Part shown: piece by piece, positions 9,488 to 21,963 of the stretch
Layout: every line of letters begins with the position of its first letter
How positions within the stretch are numbered: the first letter of the stretch is position 1
IMG/VR virus record: IMGVR_UViG_3300004369_000683
Span: 1 to 22,691 of that record
Direction: 5' to 3' (one strand)
DNA: 22,691 nucleotides
From: a virus
Program-made: the position numbers and the translations under genes
Notes under the pieces: generated by a model
The model's input: the letters and a program-made list of their open reading frames with translations, nothing else
Told to the model about the DNA's origin: nothing
Database searches by the model: none

Positions 9488-9516
9488 ACTGTACCCCTTA
9501 TTGACTGTAGACGCAA
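9488..9516 (-). promoter_or_regulatory. AATAAG-type promoter (for the gene ending at 9226)
   Basis: Minus strand: TTGCGT (9516-9511), 17-bp spacer ending CAATAAGGGG, TACAGT (9493-9488), then 7 nt to the ATG. AT-rich DNA with TTGACA lies just upstream. It belongs to the repeated promoter family described in the findings. Confidence 0.82.
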
Positions 9517-9523
9517 CCTTTTG

Positions 9524-11431
9524 TCAAGAATTTTTTCGGAACAGCGACATGATCAGTTGAGACACCGATGTTTCCTCGGTTTCAGCGTCCCCACCATCCG
9601 TCGCCTGATTCACGACTGAGCGTTTCCGCTCAATCAAATCATAGATTTCTTCATCGATAGAGCCATTTAGCAGTAAATAGGTAGCCGTCACCGAACCCGT
9701 CTGCCCAATCCGGTGACACCTACTGTACGTCTGGTCAACATCCGCCGGAGTCCACGGCAACTCCACAAACAAAACGTCCTGTGATGCCGTCAACGTATGC
9801 CCGGTCTTCGCCGCCTGAATCGACAAAACCATAACTTTTGCGTTCGGGTCAGTTTGGAACGCCTCCTTAGCCGCCTCAATGTCCACCACATCCATCTCGC
9901 CCTGAATCTTGTAGCCACCATATTTGTTGGCCAACATGTCCACGATGTCACGATGGTGCGCCGCAACTACAACTTTCCGGGACTCCGCGAGCCGGCCCTC
10001 GATCCACTCCTCAATCGCAGGCATCTTCGCCTTCGCAGCCAATCTGCGCAAAATGCTAATCCGCACGAGATGCTGATTAGCCTCCGCTTTCAGACGAGCC
10101 TGAACAGCCGCCGACTTCGGACTCAACCCCAACTCCTCAGCGATTTCCACAGCCCTATCCACAAGGTACTGGACAATGTCCCTCTCGGCTTTCCGGTACT
10201 CCTTCATCGCTGCAGCCCCGCCATCAACCACAACCGGGTCATGAACGACTGGCGGCAGTTCCGTCAAAACTTGGTCTTTTGTTCTCCGGATGTAACACGT
10301 TGACCGCAAACGATCGTTGAGTTCATCAAGATTCGATGCGCCCTCTAGATGCCATTGCCCCCACTTGTCACGGAAAGCGTCGCAATACCTGCGGTAGAAA
10401 CCCCATTCGCCTCCGAACTTTGATAACTGTCCGATGATGCCGAGTTGAGGTGCGTACTCTGCTGGCCTGTTCGTGATCGGGGTGCCTGTGAGGAGGATCA
10501 CCGGGACTTCAGGGCCCGCGCCGGCGGCAATCTTCTTCGCTGCTTTGGTTCGCTGTGACGTTCCGTTCTTGCAGTAGTGGGATTCGTCAAAGACGTAGCC
10601 GTTCTTGCCTTTCAGTTGTTCAGCCCAATGAGCGATGTTTGAGTAGCCGACAACCAGAACCTCATAGTTTTGTGGGATTTCCTTGCGGTTCTCGACAACT
10701 TGGCAGTCCCGGTGCGGCAGCCAGCGGGCGTACTCCTTCTGCCAGTTGAGGACAAGTGTGGGTGGGCAAACCACAACACATGGGTATGCGTGCTGTTTCT
10801 CAATGGCGGCAATGGCTTGGAGAGTTTTCCCCAACCCCATCTCGTCGGCAATGAAACCTTTCTTGACTTTCGTGATGTAGTTGACGCCAGCCTTCTGGTA
10901 ATCCAGCAGCGTCGCTCGAAGTCCCGCGATCTCCAGATCCGCCTCAACGGAACGGCTTGCTTCCAACATTTGTTGCCGTTCGGCGCGGAGGTTGTCGTGT
11001 TCATCTGTCAGGTTGCGTGGTACAGCAACACCAAACCGGTTAGACCATTCGATGACTTCGCCGAGGGACGTCTTCGGGGCTGCCCAGAGTTTGCGCTTCT
11101 GATCCCATGTGATTCCGGGGATTTGCTTCACCGCTTTGATGCGTACACGTTCGTAGGGGAATGAGATGAGAACTGTGTCGCCGTCCTCGCTGATGCCTTC
11201 GGAGTGTTTGCGTTCGGGGAGTGTGAGTCGGGCAACTTCCTCTGTCATGGAGTACCCGTACTTGTCAACGAAGTCCCGGGCTGCGGCTAACTCGGCGACG
11301 GGTATTTCCCACAGTTTCGCACGTTTGTTCCACTTGGCACCGTTGATGCGTTTGATGGTTGCGACTTCTTCGGGGACGTAGGGCGTGTCGATGACGAGAA
11401 CGTCGGTGTCAAGGTAGAGGTTTACGTCCAC
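9524..11431 (-). CDS. SNF2-family helicase with tandem HARP-like repeats (SMARCAL1-like)
   Basis: The protein is about 635 residues. Two similar N-terminal segments (about 26-45 and 101-120; each with W-x3-x-KLW) look like tandem HARP-type substrate-recognition repeats. The ATPase follows: DEMGLGKT (about 194-201, Walker A), VVCPPTLVLNW (Ia), DESH (II, about 282), LTGTP (III) and RCHRIGQTG near the end (VI), all SNF2 signatures. SMARCAL1-like enzymes anneal or remodel branched DNA at stalled forks, so a role in phage replication or recombination is likely. GTG at 11431 is preferred because TAAAGT lies 6 nt before it; a TTG at 11437 is the alternative. Confidence 0.92.
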   Translation of the reverse strand: MDVNLYLDTDVLVIDTPYVPEEVATIKRINGAKWNKRAKLWEIPVAELAAARDFVDKYGYSMTEEVARLTLPERKHSEGISEDGDTVLISFPYERVRIKAVKQIPGITWDQKRKLWAAPKTSLGEVIEWSNRFGVAVPRNLTDEHDNLRAERQQMLEASRSVEADLEIAGLRATLLDYQKAGVNYITKVKKGFIADEMGLGKTLQAIAAIEKQHAYPCVVVCPPTLVLNWQKEYARWLPHRDCQVVENRKEIPQNYEVLVVGYSNIAHWAEQLKGKNGYVFDESHYCKNGTSQRTKAAKKIAAGAGPEVPVILLTGTPITNRPAEYAPQLGIIGQLSKFGGEWGFYRRYCDAFRDKWGQWHLEGASNLDELNDRLRSTCYIRRTKDQVLTELPPVVHDPVVVDGGAAAMKEYRKAERDIVQYLVDRAVEIAEELGLSPKSAAVQARLKAEANQHLVRISILRRLAAKAKMPAIEEWIEGRLAESRKVVVAAHHRDIVDMLANKYGGYKIQGEMDVVDIEAAKEAFQTDPNAKVMVLSIQAAKTGHTLTASQDVLFVELPWTPADVDQTYSRCHRIGQTGSVTATYLLLNGSIDEEIYDLIERKRSVVNQATDGGDAETEETSVSQLIMSLFRKNS

Positions 11432-11454
11432 GGTCAAACTTTATCGCAGATATG

Positions 11455-11534
11455 AGAGAACCCCCACACTCAACTCGCTGGGGGGAGGAGGAGCGTAGGG
11501 GTTCTCTTTGGGTATCAGATGGGGGGATCTGATG
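11455..11534 (-). ncRNA. Predicted 6C-like small RNA 1
   Basis: The minus strand encodes two hairpins just downstream of a promoter. Hairpin 1 (11514-11533) has 7-bp arms (ATCAGAT/ATCTGAT) and a loop of exactly CCCCCC. Hairpin 2 (11455-11507) has a 17-bp stem with two G-U pairs, outer arms AGAGAACCCC/GGGGTTCTCT, and a 19-nt loop containing CCTCCCCCCA. Two C6-loop hairpins are the defining feature of the actinobacterial 6C sRNA (B11 in M. tuberculosis), which pairs with G-rich mRNA sites. There is no U-tract, so hairpin 2 may be a U-less terminator. Transcription and family membership are predictions. Confidence 0.62.
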
Positions 11535-11540
11535 AGGGTG

Positions 11541-11569
11541 ACCCTAGCAGATTGTGCTTTCGTGCGCAA
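11541..11569 (-). promoter_or_regulatory. Promoter of small RNA 1
   Basis: Minus strand TTGCGC (11569-11564), 17-bp spacer and extended -10 TGC-TAGGGT (TAGGGT at 11546-11541). The predicted start, about 11534, falls at the foot of hairpin 1. The same TGCTAGGGT occurs before small RNA 2 at 13291. Confidence 0.65.
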
Positions 11570-11589
11570 CAACCGTCAAGGATTTTTCA

Positions 11590-11775
11590 TTACGACCGAT
11601 CGGTGATCTTCTTCGGCTCAGCGGGCATCTTCGGAGCCCCGGCGGACTTGTCCCACGATTTCGTGGCGAGGTGGCGACCCATCTCCCGATCTGCCTTGCG
11701 CTCTGAGGTTGAGCGAGCCTTGCGACGGGCGTTGCGAGCCTTGTAGATCGCCTTCCATTGTTCGGTGGTTTTCAC
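11590..11775 (-). CDS. Small basic protein, 61 aa
   Basis: A GTG start at 11775 overlaps the previous stop by 4 bp (GTGA), so it is translationally coupled. The product is strongly basic (KARNARRKARSTSERKADRE), followed by a Pro/Ala/Lys-rich tail, with no cysteines. Its charge suggests nucleic-acid binding, but no family is recognised. It is the last gene before the small RNA 1 promoter. Confidence 0.68.
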   Translation of the reverse strand: MKTTEQWKAIYKARNARRKARSTSERKADREMGRHLATKSWDKSAGAPKMPAEPKKITDRS

Positions 11776-11924
11776 TTGTTTCCTTTGTCCATTTTCTTGG
11801 CGTGTGCGAGTGCGGTGAGTCGATCGTCGAACTCGTAGCCGGTCTCCATGTCACGATTCTTCGTGTCGATGACCACCCACTTGTCGGTGTCCCACTTGTG
11901 CTTGATGTCGTATCGGTATCCCAT
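11772..11924 (-). CDS. Small hypothetical protein, 50 aa
   Basis: The ATG at 11924 lies 7 nt after TAAGGT, with a perfect TTGACA 17 bp further upstream, so the start is leaderless and well defined. The 50 residues (GYRYDIKHKWDTDKWVVID...) suggest a small beta sheet followed by a helix (DRLTALAHAKKMDK). No cysteines and no recognised family. It is coupled to the basic protein downstream by GTGA. Confidence 0.72.
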   Translation of the reverse strand: MGYRYDIKHKWDTDKWVVIDTKNRDMETGYEFDDRLTALAHAKKMDKGNK

Positions 11925-11931
11925 GACTTGT

Positions 11932-11960
11932 ACCTTACACGACCCTTTCCGACTTGTCAA
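11932..11960 (-). promoter_or_regulatory. Consensus leaderless promoter (for 11772-11924)
   Basis: Minus strand TTGACA (11960-11955), 17-bp spacer, TAAGGT (11937-11932), 7 nt, ATG. It lacks the AATAAG core, so it may be a constitutive sigma-70-type promoter rather than a member of the repeated family. Confidence 0.78.
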
Positions 11961-11964
11961 GTCT

Positions 11965-12171
11965 TTAGTCGAAATCTGCGAACATTTCTTGGAAGCACTC
12001 GGGGTGCGTTCCATTCATGACCTGCTCACGAAGCGGAGCCGGTAGGTTCGGAAACGCATCTTGGATGAGTGCGCCCTTGCGACGAGCCTCCATGCCCGAC
12101 TTCGGAACGATCACGGTTCCGTAGTCTCCGCAATGAAAGCAACGTGGTGTGGTGACTTCGATCATCTCCAT
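11965..12171 (-). CDS. Small zinc-finger-like protein, 68 aa
   Basis: The ATG at 12171 follows the promoter -10 by 6 nt. The product begins MEMIEVTTPRCFHCGDYGTV, with a C-x2-C knuckle. A second pair may be formed by the H and C of NGTHPECF near residues 57-62, together a likely zinc site. The middle has a basic KSGMEARRKGA helix and the end is acidic (EMFADFD). Similar small C-x2-C / H-x2-C proteins are frequent in actinophages; no function is assigned. Confidence 0.75.
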   Translation of the reverse strand: MEMIEVTTPRCFHCGDYGTVIVPKSGMEARRKGALIQDAFPNLPAPLREQVMNGTHPECFQEMFADFD

Positions 12172-12177
12172 AGGTAC

Positions 12178-12206
12178 AGTAAACACCTTATTCGACTCAA
12201 TGACAA
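12178..12206 (-). promoter_or_regulatory. AATAAG-type promoter (for 11965-12171)
   Basis: Minus strand TTGTCA (12206-12201), 17-bp spacer containing GAATAAGG, TTTACT (12183-12178), 6 nt, ATG. GGTTGT spans the -35. It closely matches the promoter at 16443-16471, including the TTTACTGTACCTATG end. Confidence 0.82.
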
Positions 12207-12227
12207 CCTGTTATCAGAAAAATGTCG

Positions 12228-12386
12228 GGTTCGCCCCGAACCGAGGAGGGAGAAAAAAGAAAAAACCTCCGTCAACCCGCATCCTGACTGCCCGGTAGCG
12301 GGGCTATCGGCCCGGGGAGGACTCCTCACACGCAGGAGGCACAGTAACCATGCTTAGGCGTGGATACCCGACTGGAGTCCTTACGC
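12228..12386. other. Structured intergenic region with polypurine tract
   Basis: No gene is visible here. From left to right: a perfect hairpin GGTTCG-CCC-CGAACC (12228-12242), which on the minus strand precedes a T5 run and could be a terminator; a 23-nt purine tract ending A6-G-A6; a GC-rich hairpin at about 12294-12316; and TAGGCGT/ACGCCTA arms (about 12356-12390) enclosing a segment that is also complementary to AGGACTCC near 12318. The last two pairings could form an H-type pseudoknot or switch. A plus-strand 23-codon frame with AGGAGG before it (12351) is not claimed as a gene. Confidence 0.4.
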
Positions 12387-12611
12387 CTAGAGAGCCGGTT
12401 TACGCCACTTGTAGGGCGTGAAGTCCCGGTTCACAGCATCCGCCAGTTCCTCGGACTCGTAGAGGCGAACAACATGGTGGCACGGATCTGACCCCTGCTC
12501 CCATTCTGCTTCCTCTTCCTCCGACATGGGGATTCCGTCATGGGTGGAGCAGACCGCAGAGCCACACCACTTGTTGTCGACCCCGATTTGGAGCCATTCG
12601 TCGAACGTCAC
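12387..12611 (-). CDS. Small conserved phage protein with Cys/His pattern, 74 aa
   Basis: The GTG at 12611 is chosen because it overlaps the upstream stop by 4 bp (GTGA) and has AGGAGG 7 nt before it; a TTG at 12617 is too close to that site. The product reads MTFDEWLQIGVDNKWCGSAV and continues with C-x-T-H-D-G and GSDPCHHVVRLY. This pattern (W-C-G ... C-x2-H-D-G ... D-P-C-x-H) recurs in small actinophage proteins that I recall as unassigned. Zinc binding is possible. It ends in an acidic-to-basic tail (DFTPYKWRKPAL). Confidence 0.78.
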   Translation of the reverse strand: MTFDEWLQIGVDNKWCGSAVCSTHDGIPMSEEEEAEWEQGSDPCHHVVRLYESEELADAVNRDFTPYKWRKPAL

Positions 12612-12757
12612 TTCCAAGCCTCCTTGTCACGACAGGCGTTGCGAGCCTGCTTCTTCTTCTTGTCGGGGAGAGTTTGCGCACGCAAACGAGAGTGGGTGAA
12701 AGCCCACTTGTCGTCAGCGTTCCAAGCCTTTTGTTTGGATTTCGGCTTCTTCTCCAT
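12608..12757 (-). CDS. Very small basic protein, 49 aa
   Basis: This short gene is defined by its promoter and by coupling. TATTAT lies exactly 7 nt before the ATG at 12757, and its stop overlaps the next start by 4 bp (GTGA). The product is Lys-rich (MEKKPKSKQKAWNADDKWAF, then LPDKKKKQARNACRDKEAWK), with one cysteine, and would be positively charged. The charge suggests binding to nucleic acid or to an acidic partner. No family is recognised. Its 5' end lies within the last codons of the preceding gene. Confidence 0.72.
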   Translation of the reverse strand: MEKKPKSKQKAWNADDKWAFTHSRLRAQTLPDKKKKQARNACRDKEAWK

Positions 12758-13139
12758 GTACCCAATAATACCCCTTACCCGGGCTATTTACAACACTTTC
12801 GTGAGGTTTTCTTGACAAATCTGGTTTTGACGCCGGCGCAGCCCCGTCTTCTTCGAGAACACAATCCCAGCCACAAGCGGCGTATCCAGCAAGATCAATC
12901 CAGTTGTCCTCCTTCTCAGGCGACCACGAGATGCGAGAAAGTTTCAGACACATCATCAACGCAGCAACATCGTGCGGTTTGAGAGAAACCGGGGCTCCGA
13001 GGCGGCGGCTGAGGTACGCAGACCACATCTCGGCAGTTGTCCGGAAGTCGGAGATCGGGTCGCCGTAATCGACGTTTCTGTCGCCGTTGACCAGACGATC
13101 GGCTTCGGACAGGACTCGGGTGCGGTTGCTTTTGCTCAT
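12714..13139 (-). CDS. DUF6378-like phage protein
   Basis: The 141-residue protein contains the pattern I associate with DUF6378: EADRLVNGDRNVDYGDPISD, a W-x-A-Y-L helix, then KPHDVAALMMCLKLSRISW and DNWIDLAGYAACG. Function is unknown; the family is common in phages. Leaderless translation is indicated by TAAAGT 6 nt before the ATG and TTGACG 18 bp above it. The last ~27 codons (after SRKPHESV) are also the promoter region of the next gene, so the C-terminus overlaps regulatory DNA and the next gene by 44 bp; the conserved domain ends before that. Confidence 0.8.
   Translation of the reverse strand: MSKSNRTRVLSEADRLVNGDRNVDYGDPISDFRTTAEMWSAYLSRRLGAPVSLKPHDVAALMMCLKLSRISWSPEKEDNWIDLAGYAACGWDCVLEEDGAAPASKPDLSRKPHESVVNSPGKGYYWVHGEEAEIQTKGLER
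12765..12793 (-). promoter_or_regulatory. AATAAG-family promoter variant (for 12608-12757)
   Basis: Minus strand TTGTAA (12793-12788), 17-bp spacer with GGTAAGGGG in place of AATAAG, TATTAT (12770-12765), 7 nt, ATG. It lies inside the 3' end of the DUF6378-like gene. TTGTCAAGAAAACC upstream matches the conserved AT element of the family. Confidence 0.72.
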
Positions 13140-13145
13140 GGGACG

Positions 13146-13175
13146 ACTTTACAGCCCCGTTCTGGTTGGCGTCAA
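13146..13175 (-). promoter_or_regulatory. Leaderless promoter (for 12714-13139)
   Basis: Minus strand TTGACG (13175-13170), 18-bp spacer, TAAAGT (13151-13146), 6 nt, ATG. The TAAAGTCGT-n3-ATG end is nearly identical to that before the gene at 5080. Confidence 0.7.
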
Positions 13176-13189
13176 GCGTCGCGTGAACG

Positions 13190-13224
13190 AAAAAACCCCG
13201 ACCGTCGGGGGGTAACGGTCGGGG
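13190..13224 (-). terminator. Strong Rho-independent terminator
   Basis: Minus strand AACCCCGACCGT pairs with ACGGTCGGGGTT over 12 bp around a 9-nt loop containing C6, and the stem runs into T6. It is the most canonical intrinsic terminator in the window. Confidence 0.9.
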
Positions 13225-13284
13225 TTCTCGGAGAATGGGGGGTGTCCCACTCCCCCGAAGGGGAGCACTAGGGGTTCTGTTGCC
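13190..13284 (-). ncRNA. Predicted C-rich small RNA 2 with intrinsic terminator
   Basis: From the promoter at 13291-13319 a transcript of about 95 nt would contain a CTCCCC-TTCG-GGGGAG hairpin, a C6 run (13228-13233 region), and a terminator stem of 12 perfect pairs whose loop also holds CCCCCC, followed by T6. An alternative stem pairs the GGGGAGTGGG strand with the CCCATTCTCC segment and excludes the TTCG hairpin, so two folds compete. Two C6 runs plus a terminator resemble the 6C sRNA layout less exactly than small RNA 1. A plain terminator for the gene at 13332 is the simplest alternative; the matching promoter argues for an RNA. Confidence 0.52.
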
Positions 13285-13290
13285 ACGCTT

Positions 13291-13319
13291 ACCCTAGCAA
13301 GGCGCCGACTCTTAGTCAG
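13291..13319 (-). promoter_or_regulatory. Promoter of small RNA 2
   Basis: Minus strand CTGACT (13319-13314), 17-bp spacer, extended -10 TGC-TAGGGT (TAGGGT at 13296-13291), the same extended -10 as small RNA 1. It lies in the gap after the stop of the gene at 13332. Confidence 0.6.
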
Positions 13320-13331: not shown

Positions 13332-13484
13332 TCAGCGACGACGATTCTTCCAACCCTCGGGGACGGCAAAGCCCCAGCGAAGGTCGTCTTGATCGATGGT
13401 CTCCTCCTCTGGGTCATCAAACCCGAAGAGTTCGTCCAACAACGATTCCTCGTTCTTCTTCATCTCACCTCCCCCCATCTCCAT
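13332..13484 (-). CDS. Small acidic protein, 50 aa (or 43 aa from an internal start)
   Basis: Two starts are possible. ATG at 13484 lies 7 nt after the TAACCT -10 (leaderless, 50 residues); ATG at 13463 has a strong GGGGGGAGG ribosome-binding site 4 nt before it (43 residues). The shared part is acidic (KKNEESLLDELFGFDDPEEE) and ends in a basic WKNRRR. The G-rich site is exactly complementary over 10 nt (TGGGGGGAGG) to the loop of small RNA 1, so its translation may be RNA-controlled; this is inference. No family is recognised. Confidence 0.7.
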   Translation of the reverse strand: MEMGGGEMKKNEESLLDELFGFDDPEEETIDQDDLRWGFAVPEGWKNRRR

Positions 13485-13491
13485 ACTCTTT

Positions 13492-13520
13492 AGGTTACTG
13501 CTTATTAGGCATAACGACAA
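13492..13520 (-). promoter_or_regulatory. AATAAG-type promoter (for 13332-13484)
   Basis: Minus strand TTGTCG (13520-13515), 17-bp spacer with CTAATAAGCAG, TAACCT (13497-13492), 7 nt, ATG. Confidence 0.82.
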
Positions 13521-13599
13521 CCTCTGAATCATTTTTTCCCATAAAGATGCTGACACTTAGACAACCCGTTTCGCACGGACATTTGTTAGCGGGAGCCCC

Positions 13600-14103: not shown

Positions 14104-15189
14104 TCAGCGAACCACCGCAGTCACTTGGTGCTTGATAACCAACGGAGCATGATCTGGCCCCTTGATGTGCGGAGACACGAACGTCATACGACGAGCCTCA
14201 GGGTCAGCCTGCTCACCCAACTCCTTGTACCATTGACGACGCCAATAGCCACGGACGAAGATCTGGTGATCCAAACCAGTCCCCGTGCCAGTCCCGTCTT
14301 CATGGCCCGCACGACGTTGGCGACGAAGCCGAAGCGTAGTGACTTGGCCGTCCCACTTGGCCTTAGATGCCTCACGCTCAACAGCACGACGCTCCAAACG
14401 GGAGAACTCCGAGCCAACTGGTTTGCGAACGAGGATCTCCTGCCAGCAGAAGCGCATCAACGAAAGGAAGAACTTACGCATGTACGCTACGTCTGGGGTA
14501 GCGACCAGAAAGCCCTCCGGGGCTTCATGCTCCTCATCAGTCCACTTCTGAGTGAATGACCAAGCGTGGAAGTCCATGATGTAGAGGCTTTGCCCCTGTC
14601 CAGCGAGACGTTCGATCATCGTCTCTTTCTCTCCGTCTTCGTGCGATTCCATCACACGATCAACAGCCTGTTTCAGCAACTCGCCGTTGGTGTAGATCAT
14701 CAGCGAAAGACCGGAAGATTTAGTCCCGTCCATGTTGGTGACTTCGGTGACTTTCCATCCAACACCGCACCAACCGACAGATCCGGTAACGAACCGTTCG
14801 TCCTCAAACTTGAGTGGCTTGCCGAACATGATGAAACCTTTATCGGCAATGAGATCGTCGTAGCGAATCGGCTCAGGTTCCATGATGGACGCACCGTAAT
14901 CAAGCAACGTCATGATCTCAGGGCTGATCCATGTGGTTGGGTTGCCAAGGATCATCCGTTCCAGTTGGAGGAGTCCGTATGTTCCTTCCAGTTGGCTCAT
15001 TTTGTCGTCAACGTCACTACGGCTTGACATGGAACGCCATAGTGCTAGAGCCTGAATGAAAACGTCGTGGTCGACAGTCCCGTCACGCGGGTCTCCCCAA
15101 CCGGAGCGTGCGCCATTATCAAGTGTGTGACGCACCCGTTTGGCACGGTCGTTGTGGTGTCGAACGGAGTCGGCGATGCCGTACTTCAC
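14104..15189 (-). CDS. Conserved phage hypothetical protein, 361 aa
   Basis: The GTG at 15189 overlaps the upstream stop by 4 bp (GTGA); an extension to 15261 would lie inside that gene and was rejected. The 361-residue protein has an N-terminal segment (HHNDRAKRVRHTLDNGARSG, then a WRSMSSRSD helix) and a central domain (GKPLKFEDERFVTGSVGW, DFHAWSFTQKW). The C-terminus is basic (LRLRRQRRAGHEDG, YWRRQWYKELGEQ, ending FVSPHIKGPDHAPLVIKHQV). I recall the IKGPD-x-APLVIK ending from unassigned actinophage proteins. The many arginines suggest nucleic-acid contact. Function unknown. Confidence 0.8.
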   Translation of the reverse strand: MKYGIADSVRHHNDRAKRVRHTLDNGARSGWGDPRDGTVDHDVFIQALALWRSMSSRSDVDDKMSQLEGTYGLLQLERMILGNPTTWISPEIMTLLDYGASIMEPEPIRYDDLIADKGFIMFGKPLKFEDERFVTGSVGWCGVGWKVTEVTNMDGTKSSGLSLMIYTNGELLKQAVDRVMESHEDGEKETMIERLAGQGQSLYIMDFHAWSFTQKWTDEEHEAPEGFLVATPDVAYMRKFFLSLMRFCWQEILVRKPVGSEFSRLERRAVEREASKAKWDGQVTTLRLRRQRRAGHEDGTGTGTGLDHQIFVRGYWRRQWYKELGEQADPEARRMTFVSPHIKGPDHAPLVIKHQVTAVVR

Positions 15190-15431
15190 TTGTAGGTACC
15201 GCCGTCGAACAGGAACGCACGATGGCGATGTCCAGCGAGATGAGTGCCACAGGCGTCGCACGGAGCCTTGGAGAACTCCAAGCAGTATTCCTCGTTCTCA
15301 CCGCAGTCAATGATGAGGTTGTCGGGGAACGCCTTGACTTCGGCCTCACGAGCCTCGTCGTCCAGACCGGTCAGGTCGGCGTTGGCATGCCACATAGTGC
15401 AGTCGGTACAGATCATCATTCCGTCATCCAT
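15186..15431 (-). CDS. Small zinc-site protein, 81 aa
   Basis: The ATG at 15431 lies 7 nt after TATCGT, so the start is leaderless. The product has two C-x2-C pairs, CTDC (8-11) and CDAC (58-61), with H15 and the histidines of GTHLAGHRHRA beyond, fitting a zinc ribbon. The middle is acidic and includes NLIIDCGENEEYCLEF. The C-D-x-C-G-T-x-L-A-G-x-R-H ending recurs in small actinophage proteins. It is coupled by GTGA to the 361-aa gene. Confidence 0.82.
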   Translation of the reverse strand: MDDGMMICTDCTMWHANADLTGLDDEAREAEVKAFPDNLIIDCGENEEYCLEFSKAPCDACGTHLAGHRHRAFLFDGGTYK

Positions 15432-15438
15432 GTACAGA

Positions 15439-15467
15439 ACGATACCGCTTATTCGCTACAACAACAA
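15439..15467 (-). promoter_or_regulatory. AATAAG-type promoter (for 15186-15431)
   Basis: Minus strand TTGTTG (15467-15462), 17-bp spacer with GCGAATAAGCGG, TATCGT (15444-15439), 7 nt, ATG. TGTCAAGAAATCT, the conserved upstream AT element, begins just after the tRNA gene. Confidence 0.87.
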
Positions 15468-15495
15468 CCTGAGTCAAAAGATTTCTTGACATTCG

Positions 15496-15568
15496 TACCC
15501 CCCGTGGGACTCGAACCCACAACTAACGGGTTAAAAGCCCGCTACTCTGCCAGTTGAGTTAGAGGGGC
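15496..15568 (-). tRNA. tRNA-Lys (anticodon UUU)
   Basis: The minus strand folds into a complete 73-nt cloverleaf. The acceptor is GCCCCTC/GGGGGGT with two G-U pairs, the D arm ACTC/GAGT, the anticodon stem GCGGG/CCCGT with loop CTTTTAA, and the T arm GTGGG-TTCGAGT-CCCAC; the discriminator is A. The 3' CCA is not encoded. It is transcribed with the small-gene operon upstream and lies directly before the promoter at 15439. It may compensate for AAA lysine codons in phage genes. Confidence 0.95.
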
Positions 15569-16141: not shown

Positions 16142-16278
16142 TCCCCTTCCTGTAGGAACGCCTCGTACTCCATGTGATCTGAAGCACGATCGTATTGGAA
16201 CTGGTCGTAGCACCCCTTGTGGGCGTGCTTGTAGTCGTCGATGGGGTCGATTTGCCCACCGCAGAAGTCGCATTTCAT
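16138..16278 (-). CDS. Small zinc-site protein, 46 aa
   Basis: The ATG at 16278 overlaps the upstream stop by 4 bp (ATGA). The product begins MKCDFCGGQIDPIDDYKHAH and continues KGCYDQFQ. C3-x2-C6 and H20-x2-C23 form a plausible zinc site, similar in layout to the 15579-15785 product. The second half is acidic (DHMEYEAFLQEGE). A longer frame to 16374 lies inside the preceding gene and was rejected. Confidence 0.8.
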   Translation of the reverse strand: MKCDFCGGQIDPIDDYKHAHKGCYDQFQYDRASDHMEYEAFLQEGE

Positions 16279-16436
16279 TTGAGCATCATCCCTTCGTAGA
16301 CGGTCTCGTAGTTGTCGAACATCCCATCTTGAGCCGAAATGTATTCGATCCATTCGCCGTAGCAGGTCTCGCACAGGTCATCGAACCCCTGAGCGTCGTC
16401 GCAGGCTTGTGTGTGGAACTTTCCCCGATCAGTCAT
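16275..16436 (-). CDS. Small zinc-site protein, 53 aa, first of a five-gene run
   Basis: The ATG at 16436 lies 6 nt after the TTTACT -10, so the message is leaderless. The product (MTDRGKFHTQACDDAQGFDD, then LCETCYGEWIEYISAQ) has a C-x2-C pair plus one more Cys and a His, suggesting a partial zinc site. The C-terminus is acidic (DNYETVYEGMMLK). It heads the overlapping run 16436-15789, whose members are all small and mostly Cys-rich. Confidence 0.78.
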   Translation of the reverse strand: MTDRGKFHTQACDDAQGFDDLCETCYGEWIEYISAQDGMFDNYETVYEGMMLK

Positions 16437-16442
16437 AGGTAC

Positions 16443-16471
16443 AGTAAACAGGTTATTCAGCATAATCACAA
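16443..16471 (-). promoter_or_regulatory. AATAAG-family promoter (for the five-gene run)
   Basis: Minus strand TTGTGA (16471-16466), 17-bp spacer with TGAATAACCTG, TTTACT (16448-16443), 6 nt, ATG. TGTCAAATAAATCT lies upstream and directly abuts the DnaA-box-like block at 16495. Confidence 0.85.
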
Positions 16472-16494
16472 CCTGATTCGCAGATTTATTTGAC

Positions 16495-17448: not shown

Positions 17449-17660
17449 TCGTTCCCTTCTGGTTCACAGACCATTCCGTCGCACGAGCCGTACTGACGGC
17501 AAAAGCGGTAATAATTGGCACAATTCTGCTTGGTGAACTCGTTGACGAGAGCCCCGGCATCACGTTCCGCCTTCGCCTCCTGCCAATACTGGCGTTCGGC
17601 CTGTCTACGACCCCGACGTTTGCCGAAGCCGTAGACAATGAGACCTCCGAACAAGCCCAT
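17445..17660 (-). CDS. Small membrane-anchored-like protein, 71 aa
   Basis: The ATG at 17660 overlaps the upstream TAA (TAATG). The N-terminus MGLFGGLIVYGFGKRRGRRQ is a short hydrophobic stretch followed by a basic cluster, which could be a single membrane anchor with the rest inside the cell; at about 13 residues it is short for a full span. The remainder is charged and then Cys-bearing (QNCANYYRFCRQYGSCDGMV), possibly metal-binding. No family is recognised. Confidence 0.74.
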   Translation of the reverse strand: MGLFGGLIVYGFGKRRGRRQAERQYWQEAKAERDAGALVNEFTKQNCANYYRFCRQYGSCDGMVCEPEGNE

Positions 17661-18181
17661 TACCAAATCTCGAATCCGCCAGAGGCGATACAGAAATGGG
17701 CGAACTCTTTCACGTTCTCAACTTGGAACGGGTAGTTGGCGAGCCACGGCTCCTGCGTGCCGACACCATCACAGCCGTTACACCAGCCGTGCGTGCGACC
17801 CACCAGAATGACTGTCGCCTCGTCAAGTTCACGAGTCGGCATCCCCATCTCCACGCCAATGGAATCAGAGCGAATACCGGTCGCATGACAATGCTGACAG
17901 TCGGTGCGAGGCAACTCAGCGAGTTTGGCGTAGTACGCCAACCGATAGTCCTCCGTCACGCCGTCCTCAATGTCGTTGAGGAGACGATTACCCAGAGCGA
18001 GTGCTTGCTCCGAGTCCAGAGAGAAGCCGGAGTTGGTATGTCCCTCGCCTTCAGGGTCGCCCACGATGTCGTCGTGGAGATTCAGGCAGTAGTCCCAGAG
18101 GGGGTGCCAGAACCAGACGTTGTTGCGAAAGTATTCGCCGGTTTCGGACTGTGCGTTCTTGCCGTACACATCCATTCCCAT
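17660..18181 (-). CDS. Conserved phage protein with DnaJ-type Cys repeats
   Basis: The ATG at 18181 has AGGAGG 7 nt before it, so this member of the promoter family has a leader of about 40 nt. The 173-residue product opens MGMDVYGKNAQSETGEYFRN and NVWFWHPLWDYC, a start seen in many phage and some bacterial proteins of unknown function. Two C-x2-C motifs, CQHCHATG (about 95-102) and CNGCDGVG (about 136-143), match the DnaJ central zinc repeat CxxCxGxG. It probably binds zinc and a protein partner; a chaperone role is not shown. Confidence 0.85.
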   Translation of the reverse strand: MGMDVYGKNAQSETGEYFRNNVWFWHPLWDYCLNLHDDIVGDPEGEGHTNSGFSLDSEQALALGNRLLNDIEDGVTEDYRLAYYAKLAELPRTDCQHCHATGIRSDSIGVEMGMPTRELDEATVILVGRTHGWCNGCDGVGTQEPWLANYPFQVENVKEFAHFCIASGGFEIW

Positions 18182-18228
18182 GATGGTGCCTCCTAGAGAG
18201 CAGGTCGGGCGTATTCCCGACAACATGA

Positions 18229-18257
18229 ACGATACGCCTTATTCACTACAAGCACAA
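18229..18257 (-). promoter_or_regulatory. AATAAG-type promoter (for 17660-18181)
   Basis: Minus strand TTGTGC (18257-18252), 17-bp spacer with GTGAATAAGGCG, TATCGT (18234-18229). The ATG 2 nt later is too close and the true start is at 18181; the leader carries TCGGG/CCCGA arms. The upstream AT element lies in the last codons of the preceding gene. Confidence 0.83.
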
Positions 18258-18259
18258 CC

Positions 18260-18706
18260 TTATTCCGAAGATTTTTTGACAGATTCTCCGTAGCCGTACT
18301 TACACGCCACAAGAATCGCCGGATGGTAGTTGTGCCACCAGTCGTCGTCCCAGCCCAAAATCACCTCAGCCAGAACAGCCAACTCCTCGTCGGACGCCCC
18401 GGTCGCCCACTTCAGAGCGTCAGCGTCAGGATGGTTCGGGTCGTAATCCAACATCCCAGAATCGAGCATAACTTGGGCTTCCTCACGAATGGCGGTGGGG
18501 GAAAAGGCCACACAGTTACCCCATGCGAGATCGTTTTCAGCCAAGTTGATCGGTTTGCCGTGTTCCCGCATGACAGCGAGTGCTTCGGTCTCGTCATACT
18601 CACCGTATGTGAGATTCTCAAAGAAACGCGGGGCTGCGCCGGCGTCAACGATTTGACAGGACTCAACGAGCCAGACTTGTCCCTCAGGCGTAAAAAGGTA
18701 TTTCAC
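18260..18706 (-). CDS. Hypothetical acidic protein, 148 aa
   Basis: A GTG start at 18706 with GGAGG 7 nt before it overlaps the upstream gene by 23 bp. The product starts MKYLFTPEGQVWLVESCQIV and contains FFENLTYGEYDETEALAVM, an acidic middle (DYDPNHPDADALKWA) and WDDDWWHNYHPAILVACKYG. It looks like a small globular protein of unknown family. Its last codons (SVKKSSE and stop) coincide with the AT element of the next promoter. Confidence 0.78.
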   Translation of the reverse strand: MKYLFTPEGQVWLVESCQIVDAGAAPRFFENLTYGEYDETEALAVMREHGKPINLAENDLAWGNCVAFSPTAIREEAQVMLDSGMLDYDPNHPDADALKWATGASDEELAVLAEVILGWDDDWWHNYHPAILVACKYGYGESVKKSSE

Positions 18707-18899
18707 CGATGACCTCCCAGTCGTCTTCGTCAGCGATCAAGCCGAGCGATGAGCCGTTGTCCCACTTGACATGGATGGTTCCCATGTCGTCGGTCAGGAT
18801 CACAGTCCCTTCGGAGCCCCGAGGGAGTTGTGTGTAAACATCCGTTGTCTGAACGAGGCGGACACGAGTTCCGCGATCAAGTTTGAGAAAGTTCATCAT
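18684..18899 (-). CDS. DUF4314-like protein, 71 aa
   Basis: The ATG at 18899 overlaps the upstream stop by 4 bp (ATGA). The product has the SH3-like pattern of DUF4314: G-T-R-V-R-L-V then LPRGSEGTVILTDDMGTIHV and KWDNGSSLGLIADEDDWEVI. This small beta-barrel family is found in phages and actinobacteria; its function is not established. It sits in the middle of the 19622-18260 operon. Confidence 0.85.
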   Translation of the reverse strand: MMNFLKLDRGTRVRLVQTTDVYTQLPRGSEGTVILTDDMGTIHVKWDNGSSLGLIADEDDWEVIGEIPFYA

Positions 18900-19213
18900 T
18901 TCGTTTTCTCCGCAAGTAGGTCGGCGTAAGCCATACCGATGAGTTCCCAGCCGGATTCGGTCAAATGGTCGGTCAGACCCTTGCGCCACTCGTATGAAGT
19001 GGTGAGGTCGTTGACCCATTCATCCAGTTCGTCTTCGGTGAGTTCGGGCAGGTCGTCGGCCTCACGACAGTTGGTGATGTGTTCACGAAGGTCGTCAAGG
19101 CAGAATACAGTCCCGCTCCACCCGAACTTTGCGATGAGTTCGTGGAACACGCCGAATCCGTCGCCTTGTGTTTCGATGCCATCTACGATGGCTTTGATTT
19201 CGTCACGAGTCAT
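18896..19213 (-). CDS. Hypothetical acidic helical protein, 105 aa
   Basis: The ATG at 19213 overlaps the upstream gene by 11 bp. The product is acidic and helical: MTRDEIKAIVDGIETQGDGF, FHELIAKFGWSGTVFCLDDL, then an acidic patch (READDLPELTEDELDEWVND) and a C-terminal helix (MAYADLLAEKTK). High negative charge at this size is common in phage proteins that mimic DNA or bind host enzymes, but nothing specific is seen. No family is recognised. Confidence 0.78.
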   Translation of the reverse strand: MTRDEIKAIVDGIETQGDGFGVFHELIAKFGWSGTVFCLDDLREHITNCREADDLPELTEDELDEWVNDLTTSYEWRKGLTDHLTESGWELIGMAYADLLAEKTK

Positions 19214-19622
19214 CCTCGTCCTCCATTCCTTCCAGTTCTTTGTAGGCGTTCTGGAGTTCCTCTTCTTCTTGTTGGCAGGTCAGGCAGTCTTCCCAATGGT
19301 CACACCGATGTTGCGAGAAGATGTAGCGACCCTCGTCGGAGCGTTCCTTGATGAACGCCGAAACGACAGCAGAGTCGAACTTCCCTTGCTCCAGATGGCG
19401 AAGCACGAACTGACACACTTCGTCGTAACCGATGAAGTCGTAGTAGTAAACATCGACCGTTTCGGTCGCCTTGTCCCAGTCTTGGCAGGCGAAGCGACCG
19501 AGGTCGGTTCCGTCAACGGAGCGGATGTAGCCGATTTCGGGGAGAAACAGCGTGTCCACATCATCGGCCTTGAGGTGGTTCCCCACCCGATTACCGGTCT
19601 TGTCAAGTAGTTCTGTCAACAT
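19203..19622 (-). CDS. Hypothetical acidic protein with Cys pair, 139 aa
   Basis: The ATG at 19622 lies 7 nt after the TACGCT -10; an extension to 19775 would cross the promoter and was rejected. The product starts MLTELLDKTGNRVGNHLKAD and contains a beta-rich middle (TLFLPEIGYIRSVDGTDLG, TVDVYYYDFIGYDEVCQF). A Cys/His segment follows (QHRCDHWEDCLTCQQEEEEL), which could form a zinc knuckle, and a very acidic tail (KELEGMEDEDDS). It heads the operon 19622-18260. Confidence 0.8.
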   Translation of the reverse strand: MLTELLDKTGNRVGNHLKADDVDTLFLPEIGYIRSVDGTDLGRFACQDWDKATETVDVYYYDFIGYDEVCQFVLRHLEQGKFDSAVVSAFIKERSDEGRYIFSQHRCDHWEDCLTCQQEEEELQNAYKELEGMEDEDDS

Positions 19623-19629
19623 GAGAGAA

Positions 19630-19658
19630 AGCGTAGGGCTTATTCTACGCAACCACAA
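19630..19658 (-). promoter_or_regulatory. AATAAG-type promoter embedded in the preceding gene's end
   Basis: Minus strand TTGTGG (19658-19653), 17-bp spacer with TAGAATAAGCCC, TACGCT (19635-19630), 7 nt, ATG. GCGTAG/CTACGC form an inverted repeat around the core. The -35 is the coding sequence for the last residues (EVVVA) of the gene at 19645. Confidence 0.85.
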
Positions 19659-20058
19659 CCTCTCCCACAGATTTATCTGCGAACAGTTCGATGAACGCCG
19701 AAGCGGACATGACCATCTCGCCGTACACGACGATGGGTTCGCCAGCCGTGAACTCCCAGCCATGCGTGACAGCATCGGGGTGTTCCCATAAGACCACCGG
19801 ACAGACGTAGTTCACATCGTCATGGTCACCCACGATGATGCCGAAGCCGGTAGTCCCGCCATCGAGATTCGTGAGCGTGTCGAAGATGATGCGAGTTGCG
19901 TAGGGGTCGTCGTTCAGACGACCAGCCTCCTTCGCTTTCGCCAGCCCATTAGCAAGCGTCTCGCAGATGGAATCGCCTCCCCAATGGGTGTAGAGGTTGA
20001 GCGGGGCTGCTGGGAAGCATCCCGACTGGTAGATGGTGATGGTTGCGCGTGCGCCCAT
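19645..20058 (-). CDS. Conserved phage hypothetical protein, 137 aa
   Basis: The ATG at 20058 follows the preceding stop by 1 nt. The product opens MGARATITIYQSGCFPAAPL and contains NLYTHWGGDSICETLANGLA, a start I recall from unassigned phage proteins (G-A-R-A-x-I ... L-Y-x-H-W-x-G). A central strand-rich part (FGIIVGDHDDVNYVCPVVLW) and a helical end follow. Its last codons double as the -35 of the next promoter. Confidence 0.82.
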   Translation of the reverse strand: MGARATITIYQSGCFPAAPLNLYTHWGGDSICETLANGLAKAKEAGRLNDDPYATRIIFDTLTNLDGGTTGFGIIVGDHDDVNYVCPVVLWEHPDAVTHGWEFTAGEPIVVYGEMVMSASAFIELFADKSVGEVVVA

Positions 20059-20059
20059 G

Positions 20060-20257
20060 TCAGACCTCCTCGGTCATTTTGTATGCGTACAGGGTGTTTG
20101 TGATGGCTCCGAACATCTCATCCCACGCCCCCTCAGAGACGGGGACTTGATGAAGAACGACGTTGGCAGTCCCGTGGAGTACGGTCACCACGCCTTTGGA
20201 GAGTTCGATAATGATGGAAGCGGCTCCCTTTTCGGTTTGGACAGGTTCGGTCAGCAT
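20060..20257 (-). CDS. Hypothetical protein, 65 aa
   Basis: The ATG at 20257 overlaps the upstream stop by 7 bp; an in-frame GTG at 20266 is a possible alternative. The product (MLTEPVQTEKGAASIIIELS, GVVTVLHGTANVVLHQV) is beta-rich in its first two thirds, then helical (EMFGAITNTLYAYKMTEEV). No cysteines, signal or known family. Confidence 0.75.
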   Translation of the reverse strand: MLTEPVQTEKGAASIIIELSKGVVTVLHGTANVVLHQVPVSEGAWDEMFGAITNTLYAYKMTEEV

Positions 20258-20733
20258 GACGCCCACCCGAAGAATCCGTATTCGTCATCGGACAGTTTCA
20301 CGGCGACCGCCGAACCCCACTTGTCGTTGTAGGTCTGGCACATTGACCAGAACTTCTCTGCGCCCATCGCCTTCACGAGAACGAGTGCGTCGTCGTGGGC
20401 GAGGTTTTGGAAGGCGAAGTCAGAACCCTTCCAGTTGGCGAACGGGTCGACTTTCTTCTGTTGACCGTCTGCCCAGACGTACAGGTTGTCCATATACCAC
20501 TCGCAAGCGTTCGTCAGGCGAACCAGAATGTCCGGTACCTGTCCGAAGTCGTTTGGCCCCACTTTCGGGAGCAGGTGAGTGGGAATCGCCCACAGGTCGT
20601 ATCCCTGCTTCTCTGCGATGGTTCCGGTGTAGCCACCGTGACCGTTCCAGTAGTACGCCTCTTCGACAGCGTTGTGGAACGCCTCAGATGCGTCCTTGCC
20701 GGTCGCTTTCGTTTGGAAGGTTGTTGCTCCCAT
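20251..20733 (-). CDS. Conserved phage hypothetical protein, 160 aa
   Basis: The ATG at 20733 heads the leftward bank. The product opens MGATTFQTKATGKDASEAFH, then AVEEAYYWNGHGGYTGTIAE, a pattern I recall from widespread phage and bacterial proteins of unknown function (G-A-T-T-F ... G-H-x-G-Y-T-G-T-I-A-E). The C-terminal part is aromatic (NACEWYMDNLYVWADGQQKK; EYGFFGWASC). The leader carries a hairpin and GGTAGGGCTTATTC, the reverse complement of the promoter core. A rightward promoter overlaps its first codons. Confidence 0.83.
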   Translation of the reverse strand: MGATTFQTKATGKDASEAFHNAVEEAYYWNGHGGYTGTIAEKQGYDLWAIPTHLLPKVGPNDFGQVPDILVRLTNACEWYMDNLYVWADGQQKKVDPFANWKGSDFAFQNLAHDDALVLVKAMGAEKFWSMCQTYNDKWGSAVAVKLSDDEYGFFGWASC

Positions 20734-20749
20734 GAATAAGCCCTACCTT
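20721..20749 (+). promoter_or_regulatory. AATAAG-type promoter, rightward, overlapping a leftward start
   Basis: TTGTTG (20721-20726), 17-bp spacer with ATGAATAAGCCC, TACCTT (20744-20749), then 7 nt to an ATG at 20757. AGGTTGT spans the -35. It overlaps the start codon of the leftward gene at 20733 and faces the leftward promoter at 20789-20817. Confidence 0.75.
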
Positions 20750-20756
20750 TCTGTCT

Positions 20757-20825
20757 ATGGGCTACAGGGACTTTCCCCGTCACCCAGAACGATACGGCTT
20801 ATTCGGAACAACGACAACCTCTTGA
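20757..20825 (+). CDS. Possible 22-residue leader peptide
   Basis: ATG at 20757, 7 nt after a TACCTT -10, opens a 22-codon frame (MGYRDFPRHPERYGLFGTTT, then TS) ending at TGA 20823-20825. The start geometry is identical to that of real genes here, but the frame is antisense to the leader and promoter of the leftward gene, so it may be only a by-product of the promoter. It could be a leader peptide or an antisense transcript start. Confidence 0.3.
   Translation: MGYRDFPRHPERYGLFGTTTTS
20789..20817 (-). promoter_or_regulatory. AATAAG-type promoter, leftward, with leader
   Basis: Minus strand TTGTCG (20817-20812), 17-bp spacer with CCGAATAAGCCG, TATCGT (20794-20789). The start at 20733 is about 50 nt past the predicted transcript start, giving one of the few long leaders. 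It faces the rightward promoter at 20721. Confidence 0.85.
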
Positions 20826-20894
20826 CAGAAAAAATCCAAAAATGGCCTCTGAGCAGGGATTTTGTGGAAATCCAAAGATTTCTTGCCGGTCGGG

Positions 20895-20923
20895 TTGTGA
20901 CAGTAGGGAATAAGCCCTACCAT
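20895..20923 (+). promoter_or_regulatory. AATAAG-type promoter (for 20931)
   Basis: TTGTGA (20895-20900), 17-bp spacer with GGGAATAAGCCC, TACCAT (20918-20923), 7 nt, ATG at 20931. GTAGGG/CCCTAC form a perfect inverted repeat around AATAAG. Confidence 0.87.
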
Positions 20924-20930
20924 TCCTCTC

Positions 20931-21275
20931 ATGAAAGCAATCAACGCCGGAAAGACCGGCATCTCCACCCACATCCACTTCGACGTTGCCGACTCGTCGG
21001 CTCTCACGTTGCTCTCCATCACCGACAACGACTTCTCGTCGGGTCGGAAGGTAAACGTCCACATCATCTACAAGTCGAACCCTGAGGCTCGCTACCTCTA
21101 TGGGTTCTACGGCGTAGAAGCCATCGCCAACCTCTACCTCGCCATCATGGGCGAGGATTCGGCAGGAAAGTTCGCCACCTACGTTCGCAACAACGCCGAC
21201 GATGTATCGAAGCACGTTGCCGGCAACGTGGAGTTCTTGCCGGCTCGCAAGACCCTCGTAAAGGAGACAGTATGA
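20931..21275 (+). CDS. KTSC-like hypothetical protein, 114 aa
   Basis: The ATG at 20931 is fixed by the promoter 7 nt upstream. The protein starts MKAINAGKTGISTHIHFDVA. Its second half, VNVHIIYKSN then ARYLYGFYGVEAIANLYLAI and MGEDSAGKFATYVRNN, resembles the KTSC domain pattern (hydrophobic strand, Y-x-Y, a GV, a helix, S-x-GK-x-F). KTSC is thought to occur in phage and RNA-linked proteins; function is unclear. It is the first gene of a four-gene rightward run with 4-bp overlaps. Confidence 0.75.
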   Translation: MKAINAGKTGISTHIHFDVADSSALTLLSITDNDFSSGRKVNVHIIYKSNPEARYLYGFYGVEAIANLYLAIMGEDSAGKFATYVRNNADDVSKHVAGNVEFLPARKTLVKETV

Positions 21276-21466
21276 AAGTACCGCCCGTCTGTCCTCGTTG
21301 TGGGAACTGGATTCCCAACAACCACGAACCGGGGGCGTACCCCGGTGCGATTTCTCGTGTCGACAACAAGACCGAGATTTGCTCCGGCTGTGGGGTTGAC
21401 GAAGCCCTAGAGCAGTTCTCAACCGGCGCACCTGCGCCCATGTCCGAGTGGGAGTACCTCCCATGA
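21272..21466 (+). CDS. Small zinc-ribbon protein, 64 aa
   Basis: The ATG overlaps the upstream stop by 4 bp (ATGA). The product begins MKVPPVCPRCGNWIPNNHEP and continues with AYPGAISRVDNKTEICSGCG. It carries C-x2-C at 7-10 and 37-40, a classical zinc ribbon. The P-G-A-x-P-G-A-x-S-R-x-D-N-K-T-E-I-C-S-x-C-G motif is one I recall from small actinophage proteins. The remainder (VDEALEQFSTGAPAPMSEWE) is helical. It may bind nucleic acid or a partner; no function is assigned. Confidence 0.88.
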   Translation: MKVPPVCPRCGNWIPNNHEPGAYPGAISRVDNKTEICSGCGVDEALEQFSTGAPAPMSEWEYLP

Positions 21467-21654
21467 TGGCGATACAAGAACTGACCGACCTCATCATCCG
21501 CTACCCCGAGGAGTTCGGTCGGGGCTTCGCCGAGGGTCTCCTCTCAACCGGAGTGACCTACGACGACGACCCCGAGTCCGATCGCTCGCTCGCATACGAC
21601 GTAGGTCGCACGCTTCGTGAGGCCTTCCACGAAACCATGAAAGGGGAATCGTGA
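21463..21654 (+). CDS. Small hypothetical protein, 63 aa
   Basis: The ATG at 21463 overlaps the previous stop by 4 bp (ATGA). The product reads MMAIQELTDLIIRYPEEFGR, then GFAEGLLSTGVTYDDDPESD and a helix (AYDVGRTLREAFHETMKGES). It is acidic, with no cysteines, and likely helical. No family is recognised; its place in an overlapping rightward run is the main support. Confidence 0.78.
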   Translation: MMAIQELTDLIIRYPEEFGRGFAEGLLSTGVTYDDDPESDRSLAYDVGRTLREAFHETMKGES

Positions 21655-21857
21655 ACACCCAAGCCGTCACCCGGATCAACTCGATCCTTGCCAACAACAA
21701 CTACGACCCGGACGAAGCGGGGCTGCAAGACCTCCTCACGGACGTGATGCTGTACGCCCACGACGCTGATTTCGACTGGGAATACATCTCCCAGATGGCC
21801 AATGCGCACTTCATCACGGAGTCAGCACCCGATTACGACCCCGACAACCCGATTTGA
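21651..21857 (+). CDS. Small hypothetical acidic protein, 68 aa
   Basis: A GTG start at 21651 overlaps the upstream stop by 4 bp (GTGA), with AAAGGGG a few bases before it. The product reads MNTQAVTRINSILANNNYDP, DEAGLQDLLTDVMLYAHDAD and ends SAPDYDPDNPI. It is acidic and helical, with no cysteines. It ends the four-gene run; the stop is immediately followed by an AGCCCCGG block. No family is recognised. Confidence 0.77.
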   Translation: MNTQAVTRINSILANNNYDPDEAGLQDLLTDVMLYAHDADFDWEYISQMANAHFITESAPDYDPDNPI

Positions 21858-21893
21858 AGCCCCGGCCCCCGGGTAGCGCGTTCATCGCCTTTA

Positions 21894-21906
21894 CGGTGGG
21901 GGAAAG
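21894..21906. repeat. CGGTGGGGGAAAG repeat, short copy C
   Basis: Shares 12 of 13 bases with the CGGTGGAGGAAAG element at 13753 and 16611, again downstream of an AGCCCCGG block (21860) but without the DnaA-box-like block. It precedes the promoter at 21935 by 28 bp. Confidence 0.5.
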
Positions 21907-21934
21907 GGTTCTTCGAAAAGTTTCGACACAGAGG

Positions 21935-21963
21935 TTGTGTCGTCAACCAATAAGCGATACCTT
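21935..21963 (+). promoter_or_regulatory. AATAAG-type promoter (for 22010)
   Basis: TTGTGT (21935-21940), 17-bp spacer with CCAATAAGCGA, TACCTT (21958-21963). A leader of about 40 nt follows, with CCGGC-ACC-GCCGG arms right before GGAGAAACGG and the ATG at 22010, so the site may be folded. Confidence 0.8.

Follow-up and report, generated by a model that had tools for sequence, protein, structure and literature searches.

A promoter family with a conserved spacer word in an uncultured group of actinobacteriophages

Promoters of the phage fragment

The phage fragment described here, IMG/VR record IMGVR_UViG_3300004369_000683, has a length of 22,691 bp and a GC content of 55 % and comes from an uncultured phage of the actinobacterial host group. 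The whole fragment, which lacks the far end of the presumed early region, is called the window in the following. It carries a family of promoters in which the spacer between the -35 and the -10 element contains the word AATAAG. An initial annotation of the DNA had listed twelve such promoters, and every one of them was found at its place, nine on the minus and three on the plus strand, forming a single sharply separated class (Table 1). Positions within a promoter are given by an index that is 0 at its 5' G in GGTTGT; the coordinates of the annotation were the low ends of the sites.

The promoters consist of an A/T tract at index -18 to -9, an A at -1, GGTTGT at 0-5, ten variable positions, AATAAG at 16-21, three variable positions and TANNNT at 25-30, followed after six or seven base pairs by ATG at 37/38. 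The A/T tract corresponds to the AT element of the annotation and is indeed present: an A-tract/T-tract is found around -55 to -46 relative to the start. The term "near-identical" used for the twelve copies was too strong; it holds for GGTTGT, AATAAG, the T-A...T of the -10 and the spacings, which are fixed. Ten of the copies have GGTTGT over the -35, the others being GGTTGC (9518) and TGTTGT (12795). Deviations from AATAAG are AATAAC at 16473 and GGTAAG at 12795. The -10 is TANNNT in ten promoters and TTTACT in the other two. The TTG and its spacing are kept in all twelve, and TTGNNN-17 bp-TANNNT is the spacing of a sigma-A promoter.

A position weight matrix (PWM), as proposed in the annotation, was built from the twelve sites and scored over the whole window. 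The sites reached 21-45 bits, and the best score elsewhere was 7.4 bits. When each site was left out in turn, 11 of 12 scored 18.8-38.9, whereas 30 dinucleotide shuffles of the window gave no score above 15.9; Promoter 1, for example, has 34 bits with the full matrix and 26.6 when left out (shuffle maximum 14.7). The site at 12795 scored only 8.5, which is not significant alone, and was accepted because the homologous gene of the related phage G001 is preceded by a clean copy in the corresponding position (2484). The twelve sites are almost certainly genuine promoters.

A feature absent from the annotation is the position of the start codon. In nine of the twelve sites an ATG lies at index 37/38, which is the expected +1 (a start codon 6-8 nt past the -10). 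Eight of these open reading frames (ORFs) of 49-139 amino acids (aa) and the ninth, at 20719, only one of 22 codons. The other three sites (18259, 20819 and 21933) are leadered, each with a Shine-Dalgarno-like sequence ahead of the start. Since the ATG coincides exactly with the expected +1, most of the mRNAs should be leaderless, a prediction from sequence that is very probably correct. Actinobacterial ribosomes readily translate leaderless mRNA. The facing layout of Promoters 9 and 10 (20719-20819) may represent an antisense or interference arrangement.

Table 1 Promoters and further features of the window
Feature	Position	Strand	-35, spacer word and -10	Start, gene and remarks
Promoter 1	9480..9518	-	GGTTGC...AATAAG...TACAGT	ATG at +1; 84-aa ORF 9226-9480
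Promoter 2	12171..12208	-	GGTTGT...AATAAG...TTTACT	ATG at +1; 68 aa, 11965-12171
Promoter 3	12757..12795	-	TGTTGT...GGTAAG...TATTAT	Degenerate; ATG at +1; 49 aa, 12608-12757
Promoter 4	13484..13522	-	GGTTGT...AATAAG...TAACCT	ATG at +1; 50 aa, 13332-13484
Promoter 5	15431..15469	-	GGTTGT...AATAAG...TATCGT	ATG at +1; 81 aa, 15186-15431; best PWM score
Promoter 6	16436..16473	-	GGTTGT...AATAAC...TTTACT	ATG at +1; 53 aa, 16275-16436
Promoter 7	18221..18259	-	GGTTGT...AATAAG...TATCGT	Leader ~40 nt, AGGAGG, ATG 18181; gene 17660-18181
Promoter 8	19622..19660	-	GGTTGT...AATAAG...TACGCT	ATG at +1; 139 aa, 19203-19622
Promoter 9	20719..20757	+	GGTTGT...AATAAG...TACCTT	ATG at +1; ORF of only 22 codons; faces Promoter 10 at 100 bp; overlaps start of gene 20251-20733 (-)
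Promoter 10	20781..20819	-	GGTTGT...AATAAG...TATCGT	Leader ~48 nt, GGTAGGG; gene 20251-20733; divergent centre, leftward arm
Promoter 11	20893..20931	+	GGTTGT...AATAAG...TACCAT	ATG at +1; 114 aa, 20931-21275; divergent centre, rightward arm
Promoter 12	21933..21971	+	GGTTGT...AATAAG...TACCTT	Leadered, GGAGAAACGG ahead of ATG 22010; gene 22010-22381
WhiB-like protein	4335..4664	-		4 Cys, EPF-GIWGG; Pfam Whib 42.5 bits; PDB WhiB3/WhiB/WhiB7
RHH-Zn (ribbon-helix-helix and Zn-ribbon)	1606..1929	-		Weak candidate for the spacer reader
Macro-domain gene	330..776	-		Adjoins the RHH-Zn gene
PhyH-type dioxygenase gene	773..1651	-		Adjoins the RHH-Zn gene
tRNA-Lys (TTT) gene	15495..15568	-		Ends 26 bp upstream of Promoter 5 (15469)

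Geometry and spacer words in related phages

A helicase-based search led to 18 related contigs, the largest being G009 with 137 kb, and further IMG/VR relatives were taken in at 80 per search from several hundred. The pattern GTTG-N20-[TC]ANNNT-N6/7-ATG occurs at 321 sites in 25 related records, among them overlapping and near-identical contigs, so that the sites are not all independent (L282 lies in G025, L291 in G017 and L284 in G023). When all spacings between GTTG and -10 and between -10 and ATG were scanned, a single cell (20, 6 or 7) was enriched in the phages that carry a spacer word, here called core phages. It holds 35 sites in G020 (30.9 kb), 26 in G025, 25 in G023, 20 in G017 and 15 in G011, compared with 0.2-1 expected per cell. 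In G009 the PWM finds 17 sites and none in the reversed control. Random positions off gene starts, which the annotation had named as evidence against its proposal, are not what the core occupies: most sites of G009 cluster at 112-133 kb and sit one -10-to-start distance ahead of an ATG. Nearly all sites of G009 and G025 belong to the non-structural part of the genome. The sites radiate to the left and right from a divergent pair, whose two members are separated by 74-76 bp in the window as well as in G009 and G005. In a first strict scan of the collection, matches outside this clade were mostly single and due to chance. Among 50,697 records of known phage isolates there was no near DNA match and no homologue of RHH-Zn or of the HA-sigma4 protein described below, and the motif was matched in no paper found.

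The word at index 15-21 is constant across the sites of each phage but differs between lineages. The consensus is GAATAAG in the window, xAATAAG in G005 and G009, TAATAAG in G011, CAATAAC in G016, TAATAAC in G017, G031 and L347, TTATAAC in L343, TTACTAC in G023, G024 and G025 and TTAGTAC in G029. Furthermore, TAATAGC (L299), TAGTAAT (L298) and TTACAAC (L287) were found, each based on 5-7 sites. Displaced by 1-2 bp are TTAGTAC in G018 and TTACAAG in G020, G021 and L289. Neighbouring words are 1-2 bases apart, and GGTTG and the -10 remain unchanged. A reading of TAATAAG as stop codons is ruled out, because TTACTAC and TTACAAG contain no stop. The information at index 12-24 amounts to 6-20 bits in the core phages.

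One relative, G028, has the RHH-Zn, WhiB-like and primase genes in common with the core phages and shows the same geometry (17 sites and none in the control) without a spacer word (1.6 bits at index 12-24). The geometry and the leaderless starts are therefore the host sigma-A system, to which the word is an addition. In G028 35 % of the sites have AC at index 5-6, giving a TTGAC -35, compared with 0-17 % in the core phages, and a further set of more consensus sites is present at CACTTGACA. Some promoters of this phage (L253-L255) have a CRP-like TGTGAC...TCACA upstream of GGTTG.

The annotation had claimed that the spacer must be read by something other than ordinary sigma-70 contacts. Its constancy within each phage, its concerted change between lineages and its absence in G028 bear this claim out. 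The lineage-wise changes are the pattern expected if a regulator switches specificity and its regulon follows. That there is no reader, and that the spacer is kept by descent in recent copies of one cassette or through an extended -10 effect, is very improbable. The uniformity within genomes is indeed high, above all in G029 (20.4 bits), but flanks, discriminators and the other spacer positions diverge among the twelve sites of the window while word and spacings are fixed, and a similar 7-bp word persists at a similar place in phages that share only ~55-60 % protein identity. A host factor, or a host-specific property of the RNA polymerase (RNAP), could also read the spacer, the words differing as the hosts differ. 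The common geometry, found also in G028, fits a frame set by the host sigma-A, and readers differing between hosts would give lineage-specific words. However, phages of differing GC content (48-56 %) have AATAAG in common, and a scan of the GTDB representative genomes with the full motif of the window found no carrier and only 11 isolated single matches by chance in unrelated taxa. A reader supplied by the host is thus quite improbable.

Other repeated words were seen in the same phages and their neighbours. The window contains the dispersed G/C-rich words CGGGGCTGC and GAAGTCCCG, ten copies each with both strands counted, and related phages have similar repeats (GAGCCCCG and GGGGCTTC). G027 (57 kb; L266-L268) has a different promoter-like motif in 31 copies, in which AAATCCTTAC stands some 20 bp ahead of GACAGAGT and an ATG. 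About ten copies of CACCCCGTGCG stand directly ahead of TANNNT in G007 (L121, L122), followed by AACTAGCC and a hairpin; judged by its layout, this is another class of conserved-spacer promoters. Further lineage-specific conserved words ahead of the -10 are TTGAGATAGGTTGCACG and TAGGAAACTCCAGCC in L325 and L350. The words TAATAGATAACT, GTAGATAAG or TGTAGGTAAG, present in ~20-30 copies per 20 kb in L355, L358 and L351, in L360 and in L354, are possibly operator- or stoperator-like.

Candidate readers of the word

Three readers had been considered in the annotation: a phage-altered polymerase, an activator and a repressor. The first, taken as a sigma-replacing factor or a phage polymerase, gained no support, as no match to Sigma70_r2, multi-subunit RNAP or Rpb2_6 was obtained in G009, G017, G025 and others, whose records are possibly incomplete; a search for a single-subunit RNAP was equally silent in control genomes and therefore uninformative. 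Activator and repressor both stand.

WhiB-like proteins are established partners of sigma-A region 4. The WhiB-like gene adjoins the primase gene in the window, as it does in all core phages covering that region, and PF02467 is present in 16 of 18 records. Its motif across the phages is EPW/EPF-G[IV]WGG, a type of motif that in WhiB7 contacts region 4 of sigma-A (PMC10245118, PMC3905903). The protein is a fair candidate for a sigma-A region 4 partner that would read the common part of the promoters, A-tract and GGTTG. As the only reader of the word it was rejected, its C-terminus being near-constant across lineages with different words.

A ribbon-helix-helix (RHH) fold is assigned to RHH-Zn tentatively: profile matches have E values of 0.15 or worse, the model has a pLDDT of 69.5, and the top Foldseek matches (ParG, AtaR, Arc, CopG) lie below significance at 0.3 or worse. 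The strand residue Q/T/N tracks the word with exceptions, as G029 (Q) and G018 (T) both have TTAGTAC and G018 and G020 are both T despite different words. In addition, the gene is present in the coreless G028, and RHH-Zn was rejected. Larger relatives (G009, G017, G025, G029 and the HA-sigma4 loci) contain a cassette of RHH-A (GRPP), RHH-B (with a Zn ribbon), a second WhiB and HA-sigma4, a protein with HA and a sigma4-like helix-turn-helix (HTH) that has 332 IMG/VR relatives. RHH-A was discarded on account of strand residues nearly constant over different words, and HA-sigma4 because its recognition helix SRQR[VI]HQI is invariant across unrelated words and the protein also occurs in loci without the promoter geometry.

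RHH-B is the best of the candidate set because its strand residues vary most. They are N,S,R with AATAAG, V,T,K with TAATAAC and TTACTAC, T,A,K with TAATAGC, F,T,S with TAGTAAT, T,T,K with TTACAAC and TTACAAG, N,T,R with TTAGTAC and N,V,R with TTATAAC. V,T,K thus goes with two different words, and phylogeny confounds the comparison of residues and words. The partial agreement is weak evidence, since the candidates were examined serially in the same phages. Two further proteins were set aside. The TerS-like HTH protein (1939-2568), labelled 'RNase E' in PHROGs, resembles by our own judgement a small terminase subunit in its C-terminal part and is 60-86 % conserved. The protein p164, which we take to be DUF5872-like, occurs in core phages covering its region and is probably structural, as some of them have it fused to a giant protein.

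The RHH proteins also bear on the alternative that an Arc-like RHH repressor encoded by the phage uses the word as its operator and shuts the early genes off together. Core phages do encode such proteins, RHH-Zn and, near the second WhiB of the larger relatives, RHH-A and RHH-B, and several lineages that have different words also differ in the strand residues of RHH-B. A 17-bp spacing is optimal, so that an activator would be unneeded. Arc of P22, likewise a phage RHH protein, has its site at Pant in the spacer between -35 and -10; unlike the putative reader here, it uses paired half-sites instead of one 7-bp word. However, nothing obliges a repressor site to stay at precisely the same position in each of 10-35 promoters per genome, and promoters that contain the word have the weaker -35. 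The residues V,T,K of RHH-B are common to TAATAAC and TTACTAC phages, and in RHH-Zn, which G028 encodes as well, the residue is Q for AATAA and TTAGTAC alike. Such a repressor is possible but rather unlikely.

Known systems and interpretation

The middle promoters of T4 combine a MotA box with a sigma-70 -10 in the AsiA/MotA appropriation. The family described here resembles them in that the -10 of the host sigma is kept, the -35 is degraded, a phage box is placed at a fixed distance and a gene set would be switched together; the added box and the weak -35 are both present. It differs in the position of the box, which lies in the spacer at -21 to -16 and not around -30, in the leaderless starts and in the WhiB-like protein that would bind sigma region 4; a MotA or AsiA homologue was not seen, although no search aimed at one was made. 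WhiB7 and WhiB-WhiA promoters also have an A-tract upstream of the -35, the phage encodes a WhiB-like protein, and the example of WhiA shows that a partner of WhiB can have a short asymmetric site (PMC3905903, PMC10245118, PMC3781837). However, ~11 bp lie between the A-tract and the -35 TTG here, whereas there the tract adjoins the hexamer, the core is not GACAC, and no WhiA homologue was identified.

The annotation had compared the logic of the sites with start-associated sequences and stoperators of mycobacteriophages. The Cluster K start-associated sequence (SAS), GGGATAGGAGCCC, lies 3-7 bp ahead of the start codon in the ribosome-binding region and is Shine-Dalgarno-like, and the extended SAS (ESAS) adds 17-bp inverted repeats (PMC3203893). 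As in the present case, the motif is repeated before many non-structural genes, mostly with ATG, and the consensus of its extended form differs between subgroups (PMC3203893). Here, in contrast, AATAAG lies 16-22 bp ahead of the ATG within a full promoter that reaches to this codon and has no inverted repeat. Cluster A stoperators are likewise many copies of one asymmetric word specific for a phage group. They are scattered repressor sites, whereas here every site is part of a promoter in fixed register; outside the twelve promoters (at least 21 bits) nothing in the window exceeds 7.4 bits.

With moderate confidence, we regard the sites as host sigma-A promoters of early genes with an added word for a phage-encoded DNA-binding protein, rather an activator. 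The label "early" is taken from gene content. The host sigma-A would recognise the -10 TANNNT, the -35-like GGTTGT at 17-bp spacing and the upstream A/T tract, and the start codon at +1 would make most transcripts leaderless. The spacer word (GAATAAG here, TWANWAS-like group-wide) would be bound by a sequence-specific protein of the phage, which would switch the whole regulon together by helping RNAP at the weak -35. That the word is read by a phage protein is probable from its distribution. TTGAC is rare where the word is present and commoner in G028, which argues for help at a weak -35 and hence for activation; an activator seems somewhat the better choice over a repressor.

Several points weigh against an activator encoded by the phage. 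The -35 argument comes from one coreless lineage only, and the 25 records behind the site count are partly redundant. The word shifts by 1-2 bp between lineages, which is unusual for an activator that touches the polymerase, and the promoter spacer is a classical place for a repressor. Lineage-specific words would also suit a reader differing between hosts. Finally, among the WhiB-like protein, HA-sigma4 and the three RHH proteins none tracks the word perfectly. A more detailed scheme, in which region 4 of sigma-A is modified by the WhiB-like protein and another protein of the phage switches on 10-40 mostly leaderless early genes by reading the 7-bp word in their promoter spacers, is unlikely to be right in full. 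If such an appropriation is true, the word and its reader have changed in step over seven or more specificities and would offer a natural series for a protein-DNA recognition code.

Conserved promoter spacers are rare, and here 10-35 promoters per genome have changed in concert. The phages thus represent a natural experiment on changes of specificity in a regulator and in all the promoters that it controls. From the fixed distance between -10 and ATG, these uncultured phages are predicted to express their early genes largely from leaderless mRNAs, and GTTG-N20-[TC]ANNNT-N6/7-ATG may serve as a simple pattern by which metagenomes can be searched for the true starts of small actinobacteriophage genes.

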